Below are positions 44,104 through 51,019 of a stretch of 64,000 nt of DNA, piece after piece (position 1 is the first letter of the stretch; every line of letters starts with the position of its first letter). The translations under genes and the position numbers were made by a program. A model generated the notes under the pieces. That model did no database searches. It had not been told where the DNA came from and worked only from the letters and a program-made list of their open reading frames with translations. Source of the DNA: Acidimicrobiales bacterium (GTDB lineage Bacteria; Actinomycetota; Acidimicrobiia; Acidimicrobiales; JAHWLA01); assembly GCA_035536915.1 (NCBI GenBank), contig DATLNE010000047.1, positions 62,001 through 126,000 of the forward strand. The letters are read 5' to 3'.

Positions 44104-44426
44104 CAGCGATCAAGTACAACGAACAGGGGCTGGTCCCCGCCATCGCCCAGGACAAGGCCACCGGCCAGGTGCTCATGCTGGCGTGGATGAACGAGGCCAC
44201 CCTGCAGGAGACCCTCGACACCGGCCGCATGGTCTATTGGAGCCGGTCGCGCCAGGAGCGCTGGGCCAAGGGCGACACCAGCGGCGACATCCAAAAGGTT
44301 GTCGAAGCCCGCTACGACTGCGACAGCGACGCCCTCCTCTTCCTCGTCGAGCAGGTGGGCGGCGGGGCCTGCCACACCGGCGAGTTCACGTGCTTCTACC
44401 GCGCCTTCGGTGACGAGCCCCAGTAG
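44100..44426 (+). CDS. hisI: Phosphoribosyl-AMP cyclohydrolase
   Basis: 108 residues, the monofunctional form without a HisE domain. [16 protein letters not shown] carries the Mg-binding Asp triplet, and [15 protein letters not shown] the Zn-binding Cys residues. It opens the adenine ring of PR-AMP in histidine synthesis. Coupled to the GroES-like gene upstream and overlapping trpE by 17 nt. Confidence 0.95.
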
Positions 44427-45918
44427 GGAGGAGTTCCGGGCGCTGGCGCGCGACCACACGGTGGTGCCCCTGTGGCGCCACGTGGTGGGCGACCTGACGA
44501 CGCCCGTGTCCGCCTTCCTGCGCACGGTGGGCGACGAGCCCGGCTTCCTGCTGGAGTCGGTGGAGCGCGAACGCTGGAGCCGGTGGTCGTTCGTCGGCCG
44601 CCGCCCGGCGGTGACGTTCACGGCGCGGGGCAACCAGGTGACCGTCGATGCCACGGTCCACCCGTCGATCCCCCTCGACCGCGGCATCCTCGCCACCCTC
44701 GAAGGCGTGCTGGCCCGCTACCGGGCGCCGCAGTTGCCCGAGCTGCCGCCGCTGCACAGCGGCGTGGTCGGCTACCTCGGCTACGACGTGGTGCGCGAGG
44801 TGGAGCGGCTGCCCAACGTGCCGCCCGACGACCGCAACTACCCCGACGCCGTGCTGTCGGTGATCAGCGAGTTGGCGGCCTACGACCACTGGCAACAGCG
44901 GGTGGTGCTGGTGGCCAACGCCTGGATCCCCGACGACGCCACCGAGGCCGACCTCGACCGCGCCTACGACGAGGCCGCGGCCCGGCTCGACGGCTTGGCC
45001 CGCGACGGCGCCCGTCCGCTCGACGAGCCGGTGTTGGAGCCCCCCACCCGGGAGGAGGGGCTGGCCGACGTGCACCGCTGTACCTCGCCCGACGACTACG
45101 CCCGTGCCGTCGAAGCGGCCCGCGAGTACATCCTGGCGGGCGACATCTTCCAGGTGGTGCTGTCGCAGCGCTTCGACCTGCAACTCGACGCCTTGCCGTT
45201 CGACTTCTACCGGGCGCTGCGCCAGGTCAACCCGTCGCCCTACATGTACTTCATGCGCCATCCCGAGCTGTCGGTCATCGGCTCGTCGCCCGAGCCCATG
45301 GTGAAGCTGGTCGACGGCACGGTGATCTCCCGGCCCATCGCGGGCACCCGCCGCCGGGGTCGCACCGAGGAAGACGACCGTCGCATGGCGGCCGAGTTGC
45401 GCGAGCACCCCAAGGAGATCGCCGAGCACGTCATGCTCGTCGACCTGGCCCGCAACGACGTGGGCCGGGTGGTCGAGTTCGGCACCGAGCAGGTCGACGA
45501 GCTCATGACGCTGGAGCACTACAGCCACGTCATGCACATGACCTCGCAGGTGACAGGGCGGTTGCGCCAGGGCCTTGGCCCCATCGACGTCTTGCGGGCC
45601 ACCCTCCCGGCGGGCACCGTCTCGGGTGCGCCCAAGGTGCGGGCCATGGAGATCATCGACGAGCTCGAACCGATGAAACGGGGGCCGTACGCGGGCGTCG
45701 TCGGCTACATCGACTTCTCCGGCAACGTCGACACCGCCATCGCCATCCGCACCATGTTCGTGCGCCCCGACGGCCTGGCCTCGGTGCAGGCGGGCGCCGG
45801 AATCGTGGTCGACAGCGACCCTGCGGCGGAAGACCTGGAGTGCCGCAACAAGGCCGCCGCGTTGCTCGCTGCCGTGCCCGCGGCCCGGCGCATGACCGCA
45901 GCGCGCCACAATCGTTGA
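44410..45918 (+). CDS. trpE: Anthranilate synthase component I
   Basis: 502 residues. It makes anthranilate from chorismate and ammonia. [19 protein letters not shown] holds the LLES motif of the tryptophan inhibitor site. The catalytic C-terminal half has [28 protein letters not shown] and [20 protein letters not shown]. The GTG start lies inside the end of hisI. No trpG is adjacent, so the glutaminase subunit must be encoded elsewhere. No tryptophan-rich leader was seen upstream. Confidence 0.95.
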
Positions 45919-47644: not shown

Positions 47645-48424
47645 GTGTCGACCTACCTCGATCGCATCGTCGCCGCTCACCGCGAGGCTGCCGGGGCCGA
47701 CACGCGCCCCTTGGAGCGACTGATCGACGAGGCCCGGGCCACCGGAGCCGACGTGCGGCCGTTCCGGGGCGCGCTGGCCGGCGAGGGCTTGTCGGTGGTG
47801 GCCGAGGTCAAGCGCCGTTCCCCGTCGAAGGGCGACCTGGCGGTCGACCTGGTGCCGTCGCTGCTGGCCAAGTCGTACGCCGAGGGCGGGGCGGCATGCC
47901 TGTCGGTGCTCACCGATGTCGACTTCTTCGGCGGCTCGCCGGCCGACTTGGGCGAAGCCCGCAGCGCTGTCGACCTGCCGGTGTTGCGCAAGGACTTCAC
48001 CGTCTCCGAACGCGATGTCTGCGACGCCCGCCTCATGGGTGGCGACGCCGTGCTCCTGATCGTGGCCGCCCTCGACGACGCCGAACTGCGAGCGTTCTCC
48101 GAGCTGGCCGCCGAACTGCACCTGAGCGTCTTGGTGGAGACCCACGACGAGCGTGAGGTGGAGCGGGCCTTGGCCACCGGCGCCTCGATCGTGGGCGTGA
48201 ACCAGCGCGACCTGGTCACCTTCGAGGTCGACACCGACCGCGCCGTGCGGGTGGCGAAGGCCATCCCCGACAGCGTGGTCAAGGTGGCCGAGTCGGGCAT
48301 CCGCGACGGGGCCGACGCGGCGCGATTGCGCGATGCGGGCTACGACGCCGTGTTGGTGGGCGAGACGCTGGTGCGCAGCGACGACCCGGCCGCCGCCGTG
48401 CGGAGGTTGCAGTCGTGTTCGTGA
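47645..48424 (+). CDS. trpC: Indole-3-glycerol phosphate synthase
   Basis: 259 residues. AEVKRRSPSKGDL, LRKDFTVSERDV, VETHDEREVERA, GVNQRDLVTFEVD and VAESGIRD mark the barrel active site with its two catalytic Lys and Glu residues. TAGGCT nine bases before the GTG suggests a promoter of its own, so trpCFBA may be a unit separate from trpE. Overlaps trpF by 10 nt. Confidence 0.95.
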   Translation: MSTYLDRIVAAHREAAGADTRPLERLIDEARATGADVRPFRGALAGEGLSVVAEVKRRSPSKGDLAVDLVPSLLAKSYAEGGAACLSVLTDVDFFGGSPADLGEARSAVDLPVLRKDFTVSERDVCDARLMGGDAVLLIVAALDDAELRAFSELAAELHLSVLVETHDEREVERALATGASIVGVNQRDLVTFEVDTDRAVRVAKAIPDSVVKVAESGIRDGADAARLRDAGYDAVLVGETLVRSDDPAAAVRRLQSCS

Positions 48425-49074
48425 AGGTCTGCGGCACGACCAGCGAAGAGGACGCCCTGTTGGCGGTGGCCATGGGGGCCGACGCCGTGGGCTTCGTCTT
48501 CGCCCCGTCCACGCGCCAGATCGCCCCGTCGGTGGCCGCCGACATCGTCAAGCGGCTGCCCCCTGAGGTGGTGACCGTGGGCGTGTTCCGCGACCACGCT
48601 CCCGAGCGGGTGGTGGAGATCGTCAATGCCGCCGGGTTGAAGGGCGCCCAGTTGCACGGGCGTGAGACCGCCGAGCAGTCGAAGTGGATCCGCCGCCGCG
48701 TGCCCATGGTCATCAAGGTGTTCGCAGCGGGAGACGCCGCCGTGCGCGACGCCCTCGACTACGGGGCCGACATCGTGATGCTCGATGCGCCGTCGCCCGG
48801 TTCGGGCCAGGTGTTCGACTGGCGGCTCGCCGAAGGCGTGCCCGACGGCTGCCGCCTGATGCTGGCGGGCGGCCTCACCCCCGACAACGTGGCCGAGGCC
48901 ATCGTGCGCGTACACCCGTGGGGTGTCGACGCCGCGTCGGGGCTCGAGGCCTCGCCGGGGCACAAGGACCCCCGCAAGGTGCGGGCTTTCGTGGCCAATG
49001 CCAAGGCGGCCGAAGCGCCGGCCTACGAAGGCGCGGGCGACGGTCCCTACGACTGGCAGGAGGACTCGCTGTGA
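48415..49074 (+). CDS. trpF: Phosphoribosylanthranilate isomerase
   Basis: 219 residues. [16 protein letters not shown] holds the catalytic Cys, [16 protein letters not shown] the catalytic Asp region, and [15 protein letters not shown] and [20 protein letters not shown] complete the phosphate-binding end. Its presence implies that hisA need not serve both pathways. GTGA overlap with trpB. Confidence 0.95.
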
Positions 49075-50249
49075 CGCTCATGGGCACGCCTGCGGCCGAC
49101 GGGCGCTTCGGCGAGTTCGGCGGGCGCTTCATGCCCGAGTCGCTGGTGCCCGCCTGCCTGGAGCTGGAGGCCGCCTTCACCGAGGCGTGGGCCGACGATG
49201 CCTTTCGCGACGAGTACGCCCGCCTCTTGCGCGACTACGGCGGCCGGCCGACGCCGGTTACCGAGTGCACGCGGTTGTCGGAACGCTTGGGCGTGCGGGT
49301 GCTGCTCAAGCGCGAGGACCTGACCCACACGGGGTCGCACACGATCAACAACGTCATCGGCCAAGCGCTGCTGACCAAGCGCATGGGCAAGACCCGCGTG
49401 GTGGCCGAGACCGGTGCGGGCCAGCACGGCGTGGCCACCGCCACCGCGTGCGCCATGTTCGGGCTCGAATGCGTCGTCTACATGGGTGAAGTCGACATCG
49501 AGCGCCAAGCCCTCAACGTCTTCCGCATGAACTTGCTGGGTGCCGAGGTACGGCCCGCGTCGTCGGGCAGCCGCACCTTGAAGGACGCCATCAACGAGGC
49601 GCTGCGCGACTGGGTGGCGACGGTGGAGACAACCCACTACTGCCTTGGTTCCGTCATGGGGCCGCACCCCTACCCGTGGATGGTGCGCGAGCTCCAGCGG
49701 GTGGTGGGGGAGGAGGCCCGCGAGCAGTGCCGGGCCGTGCTCGACGGCGCCGACCCCGACTACGTGGTGGCGTGCGTGGGCGGCGGGTCGAATGCCGCGG
49801 GCACCTTTGCCGGCTTCGTCGACACCAACGCCAAGCTCATCGGCGTGGAGCCCGAGGGCGGCGCCGCCATCGGCCACGGCGTGCCCGGCGTGGTGCACGG
49901 CTCCAAGTCGTTCCTGTTGCAGGACGAGCACGGCCAGGTCTTGGAGGCGCACTCGATCTCCGCGGGCCTCGACTACCCGGGCGTCGGCCCCGAGCATGCC
50001 CACCTGTCGTCGATCGGGCGGGCCCGCTACGTGGCCGCGGGCGACGCCGAAGTGCTCGACGCCTTGCAGTTGCTGGCCCGCACCGAAGGCATCATCCCCG
50101 CACTGGAATCGGCGCACGCGGTGGCCTGGGTCATCCGGGCCGCGGGCACCGACGAACTGCCCGCGGGCTCGACGGTCATGGTCACCCTGTCGGGCCGGGG
50201 CGACAAGGACGCCGAGCAGGTCATGAAGGTGCTGGACGCCCGCACATGA
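49071..50249 (+). CDS. trpB: Tryptophan synthase beta chain with the PLP lysine replaced
   Basis: 392 residues from a GTG overlapping the trpF stop; ATG at 49080 is an alternative. Overall it is an orthodox Trp[41 protein letters not shown] (catalytic Glu), [24 protein letters not shown] and LSGRGDKD. But the cofactor motif, HTGSHKINN or HTGAHKINN in the family, reads HTGSHTINN: residue 91 is Thr (ACG, 49341-49343), where Lys (AAG) forms the Schiff base with PLP. The segment after GVEPEGG is also some seven residues shorter than usual. Without that Lys normal beta-replacement should be abolished. Sequencing error, inactive gene or altered chemistry are all possible. Confidence 0.9.
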
Positions 50250-51019
50250 AGCTCGAAGCCCACCTGCGGGAGCGGCGTGACGCCGGGCGCAAGCTGTTGG
50301 TCCCCTACGTGACCGGCGGCCTCGGCGACCAGTGGACCGAGGTACTGCGGGCCATGGCCGACGCCGGTGCCGACGCCATCGAAGTAGGCATCCCCTTCTC
50401 CGACCCGGTCATGGACGGCCCCACCATCCAAGAGGCGTCGCAGCGGGCGCTGGAACTGGGCGCCACCCCGGCGGGCATCCTCGGTGAACTGCGGGGCGTC
50501 GACGTCGGCGTCCCCTTGGTGGCCATGACGTACTACAACATCGTCTTCCGTACCGGCCACCGGCGCTTCGCCCGTTCGCTGGCCGACAATGGCGTGTGCG
50601 GGGCGATCGTGCCCGACGTGGCGCTGGAGGAGCTCGACGACTGGGGCCGGGCGGCCGCCGACGCCTCCGTGGAAACGGTGCTGCTGGCCGCCCCGGTCAC
50701 GCCCGACGACCGGCTGGCCGAGCTGTGCCGCCGCTCGCAGGGCTTCGTCTACGCGGTGTCGGTCATGGGCATCACCGGCGAGCGCCAGTCGGTGGCCCAG
50801 TCGGCCGGCGTGCTGGCCAAGCGCATGAAGGCGGTCACCGACAAGCCGGTGATCGTGGGCTTCGGCATCTCCACCCCGGATCAAGCGGTGGAAGCGGCGG
50901 CCGAAGCCGACGGGGTCGTGGTGGCGTCGGCGTTGATGCGGCTGCTGCTCGACGGCGCCGCCCCCGAGCAGATCGGCGACGCAGTGGCGGCCATGCGCCG
51001 AGCGCTCGACGCCGGGTGA
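50246..51019 (+). CDS. trpA: Tryptophan synthase alpha chain
   Basis: 257 residues. It cleaves indole-3-glycerol phosphate to indole, which TrpB uses. [20 protein letters not shown] carries the catalytic Glu and Asp, YYNIVFRTG and the loop-6 region [11 protein letters not shown] follow. ATGA overlap with trpB. The last gene of the unit, followed 14 nt later by a dispersed palindromic repeat. Confidence 0.95.

Follow-up and report, generated by a model that had tools for sequence, protein, structure and literature searches.

According to the review PMC9512447, βLys87 of tryptophan synthase is essential for aldimine formation and acts as the acid-base catalyst of proton transfers, and structures of Salmonella βK87T represent external aldimines in the R (closed) state. 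Natural β chains (TrpB) without this Lys were not found in the literature searched, the search being by title and start of abstract with subscription journals mostly outside its scope. Salmonella βK87T was reportedly studied by Rhee in 1997 and by Banik in 1995, and PDB entries 1ubs, 2trs, 2tsy and 2tys are, we assume, structures of this protein. Chains from these four entries outscored other Salmonella chains (430.9 versus at most 428.2 bits, and 41.1 versus at most 38.7), as expected if they carry Thr.

The trpB gene considered here is located in a 64,000-nucleotide stretch of an Acidimicrobiales genome (the window). A preliminary description of this DNA noted that the PLP-binding Lys of TrpB is replaced by Thr and offered three readings, i.e., sequencing error, an inactive copy accompanied by another trpB elsewhere, or altered chemistry.

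Results

Codon 91 of the open reading frame that starts with GTG at 49071 is ACG (Thr), giving HTGSHTINN as the cofactor motif of the window TrpB, with Thr where the PLP-binding Lys is expected. The frame is open as far as the TGA at 50247-50249, and the GGGSNA and SISAGLD motifs are both present in the 392-residue product. The codon and motif, as well as the intact remainder of the gene including its catalytic Glu, were thus as first described. The protein scored 548.2 bits against the TrpB1 profile (TIGR00263, cut-off 392.45) in a match that spanned TrpB residues 11-387 and profile positions 1-384 of 385, whereas its score against the TrpB2 profile (TIGR01415) was 175.9 bits and below the cut-off of 518.85. 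Among other features of TrpB1, the catalytic Glu (Glu113, with Glu also in 92/92 relatives) and an adjoining trpA in a trp cluster were found, and the Lys of HTG(S/A)HK was replaced by Thr91. Glu113 presumably corresponds to Salmonella Glu109.

Table 1. Positions in the window of trpB, of sites within it and of other trp genes.
Feature	Position	Strand	Remarks
trpE, anthranilate synthase component I	44299..45918 (longest-frame start)	+	TIGR00564, 524.4 bits, cut-off 517.7
trpC, indole-3-glycerol phosphate synthase	47645..48424	+	NF001377, 271.7 bits, cut-off 260
trpF, phosphoribosylanthranilate isomerase	48415..49074	+	Top five NCBIfam matches all to this enzyme, all under the cut-offs of their models
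trpB, tryptophan synthase beta chain	49071..50249	+	392 aa; GTG start overlaps trpF stop; TIGR00263
CACACG-GGGTCG-CACACG	49326..49343	+	Changed codon completes second CACACG; only two CACACG on coding strand of gene
Codon 91, ACG (Thr) replacing PLP-binding Lys	49341..49343	+	Lys in 92/92 full-length relative TrpBs
Shortened loop	49842..49922	+	8 residues shorter than TrpB of 5ey5 (alignment)
trpA, tryptophan synthase alpha chain	50246..51019	+	TIGR00262, 222.8 bits, cut-off 102.35; start overlaps trpB stop (ATGA)

The genes adjoining trpB are in the order trpC-trpF-trpB-trpA, with trpE two open reading frames upstream of trpC. Genes trpD and trpG were also found in the genome, and the frames of trpE, trpC, trpF, trpA, trpD and trpG were all open. 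In stretches fetched from seven relatives, matches to trpC, trpF, trpB and trpA were close together in each case (7/7). A separate observation concerned TrpA of the window, which has Ser141 where 28 relatives carry Gly; to our knowledge, this is not a catalytic position.

The uniqueness of the changed codon was evident from a search of 98 relatives, comprising a single genome from the genus and 97 from the order. The count of Lys was restricted to the 92 with a full-length TrpB match (G002, G025, G046, G062, G063 and G077 gave weak or partial matches only), and Lys was noted at the Thr91 column in all 92, the window assembly being the sole exception. The nearest relative, G001, which is of the same genus and together with the window genome provides the only two genomes of the family in the collection, encodes a TrpB 89% identical to that of the window and keeps the Lys as AAG, in agreement with the single A-to-C change from AAG that had been suggested. 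The preliminary description had held that Lys throughout the lineage, with this assembly alone departing, would speak against a real change; this pattern was found in those 92 of the 98 relatives, and sequencing error fits best among its readings. Moreover, 114 of the 392 TrpB positions are invariant among the 92 relatives, and the window TrpB departs from these only once, at Thr91, which counts for an error. Departures at one to three otherwise invariant columns in 15 of the 92 relatives count against an error, though none of these departures was at the Lys. A different change in the same motif, i.e., Gly for the Thr of HTG (aligned column 87), was noted in TrpB of one other genome (L061 of G065) and was unique among 93 sequences.

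Other TrpB proteins without the Lys were rare. A species-level collection of 84,980 genomes, in which the window genome itself was possibly not included, was scanned for the motif E-(D/E)-L-x-HTG-x-H-x-INN in which the second base of the Lys codon was other than A, a pattern that Lys to Glu, Gln or Asn changes and HKLNN motifs would escape. Two loci were found, both in MAGs and both with Lys to Met (HTGAHMINN), one in a Calditrichaeota genome (L033, 5514-5552) and the other in a Caulobacteraceae genome (L034, 6919-6957), where the codon is 87 bases from a contig end. The comparison for L033 comprised 25 loci, including the genome itself and one locus without coverage of the site, and Lys was present in 23/23 relatives that covered it. 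Thus, with two loci in the scan and Lys kept by the relatives of L033, a clade of Lys-less TrpBs elsewhere was not found. Of 396 genomes from the phylum of the window, 232 contained the matching Lys pattern; if this share held across the collection, a rough assumption based on a single phylum, two cases would correspond to approximately 4 in 100,000 sites, a rate that in our judgement could be explained by errors in the consensus or by rare mutations private to one genome. Isolated occurrence is predicted by both consensus error and private mutation, and the rarity and isolation of Lys-less TrpBs in the scan were taken to count for an error.

The remainder of trpB shows no sign of decay. In comparison with G001, dN for trpB was 0.071 and dS 0.553, and this dN was the lowest among the seven genes compared. 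When six more distant outgroup relatives were used to place changes on branches, amino-acid changes in trpB numbered 12 on the window branch and 13 on the G001 branch, and synonymous changes 37 and 33, respectively. Corresponding numbers of amino-acid changes were 10 and 10 for trpC, 9 and 9 for trpA and 5 and 13 for trpF. At columns invariant in 29, 28 and 23 relatives, window TrpF, TrpA and TrpC showed 0, 1 and 1 departures, respectively, while window TrpB showed 1 departure against 29 relatives, for which the others averaged 1.03; all of these values were inside the range of other genomes. Thus, no relaxed selection on trpB was seen in branch counts or in dN and dS against G001, pseudogene decay was rejected on these grounds as well as on that of invariant-column departures, and the Lys change, in a gene without decay, must be very young if it is real at all.

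A stretch after GVEPEGG had also been described as about seven residues short. The gap is real, amounting to 8 residues relative to 5ey5, but is not an oddity of this gene, since among 93 sequences aligned from the order (the window included) 92 have a loop of identical length and the remaining one has a loop one residue longer. A loop deletion as damage to the gene was therefore rejected, and the short loop, being common to the order, is unconnected with the Lys change. The loop immediately precedes the segment lining the indole tunnel of the Salmonella enzyme and is a possible lineage marker.

Several features of the site count against an error and in favor of a real, very recent mutation, which would have killed the β reaction in a cell that takes up tryptophan and in which the α subunit and pathway have not yet decayed. 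Thus, trpB is in mid-contig (C47:111071-112246, with more than 25 kb of contig beyond), no N occurs within the window, and the neighboring trp genes are without other signs of error. The failure to find a second TrpB (see below) is also in keeping with such a mutation. In addition, the two CACACG copies (49326-49331 and 49338-49343), with starts 12 bases apart, form a direct repeat that could template the change, and slippage between them might yield A-to-C either in the cell or in PCR. However, this repeat was spotted post hoc, and 8 relatives that share the upstream ACG codon nevertheless keep Lys. The entire tryptophan gene set, moreover, is present and conserved, and loss of the gene by a stop or frameshift should be commoner than a change at precisely the catalytic codon. 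On balance, a recent mutation is considered rather unlikely, although more probable than the other alternatives.

The suggestion of an inactive copy, tolerated thanks to a second β chain (TrpB1 or TrpB2) elsewhere in the genome, was not borne out. The window trpB was the only match to TrpB in the genome (3.2 Mb in 54 contigs, with completeness given as 99.49%), in which no protein scored above the TIGR01415 cut-off; the other matches from the TrpB search read as threonine dehydratase, threonine synthase or cysteine synthase, all of which have a Lys of their own. In spite of the stated completeness, no match to rpoB or rpoC was obtained in the contigs of this genome, which was one of two without rpoB among the 40 genomes searched (38/40 matched), and use of rpoB as a yardstick of error rate consequently failed. 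The assembly thus seems to have gaps, and the genome is probably incomplete, so that a second gene could be missing and the absence of a second TrpB is weak evidence; these gaps were also counted for an error. A second β chain is not without precedent in a Lys-less case, since the Calditrichaeota genome that contains L033 (G099) also has a second TrpB-like gene, 36% identical. On the other hand, G001, G008, G011, G030, G055 and G038 had, among the matches listed, no second match better than approximately 1e-7, many other relatives do have a second match that is 33-40% identical, and an idle copy should drift, which the window trpB does not. Tolerance through a second β chain is therefore regarded as improbable. 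Rescue by tryptophanase gained no clear support from a search with the Beta_elim_lyase profile (PF01212); there were three matches, of which the best (L116, 300.8 bits, a 337-aa ORF) read as threonine aldolase, another (L117) scored 27.8 against a cut-off of 27, and the third was below the cut-off.

Discussion

The most likely explanation of the Thr91 codon is a consensus error in an ordinary TrpB of an intact trp set, followed in rank by a very recent null mutation. For the former, a probability of roughly 0.63 seems appropriate. One base of the assembly would then be C where the lineage has A, due either to a base-call or assembly error in the consensus or to a minority-strain base that entered it, and the enzyme in the cell would be a normal TrpB, with PLP bound to Lys91, that condenses serine with indole. 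Sequencing error, as proposed in the preliminary description, thus fits best with Lys in 92/92 relatives and with a well-kept gene, although the error itself is something that we infer. The state of the pathway also counts for an error, since no other TrpB was found and an organism with Thr91 would be left without the last step of a pathway whose other steps stay under selection. Such an organism would need external tryptophan, which is a poor fit with a conserved and intact pathway.

Altered chemistry, the remaining suggestion, met with no positive evidence, as the change was absent from the relatives examined and no other invariant column had moved. One form that it might take is a β chain on which PLP and serine are bound but not turned over and which activates the α subunit, with release of indole from the complex. 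Such a function would be in keeping with the presence of an intact α partner, with retention of the other invariant β columns and with the closed-state external aldimines of engineered Salmonella βK87T, as given in PMC9512447. It would also have arisen in none of the other relatives examined and without companion changes at invariant columns, and would cost the cell tryptophan synthesis, given that no other β chain was found; it is accordingly judged very unlikely. By analogy with the Salmonella variant, a natural Thr91 enzyme should bind PLP and serine yet hardly turn over. Were the base real and fixed in the species, which is scarcely to be expected, the protein would be a natural counterpart of βK87T, in which serine-bound β drives indole release by TrpA and no tryptophan is made. 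A naturally occurring tryptophan synthase would then lack the very residue that its chemistry requires. As matters stand, the main lesson is that read support is needed where a draft genome shows a single-base oddity at a catalytic residue; the two further isolated cases from the scan, both from MAGs, are of this kind.

In sequence, length and loop length, and in clustering with trpC, trpF and trpA as seen in the seven relatives compared, the window TrpB is like TrpB1 (TIGR00263) of the same order, from which it differs in having Thr rather than Lys at codon 91. The same Lys is lost in the K90A form of an ancestral TrpB1 (PDB 9vgk, HTGAHAINN in the alignment), which differs from the window TrpB in that the replacement is Ala, is engineered and is in an ancestral sequence. 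The replacement of Lys91 by Thr is the very exchange of Salmonella βK87T, at the equivalent site; in Salmonella the exchange was engineered, whereas Thr91 of the window is one reading in one assembly, known from sequence alone.
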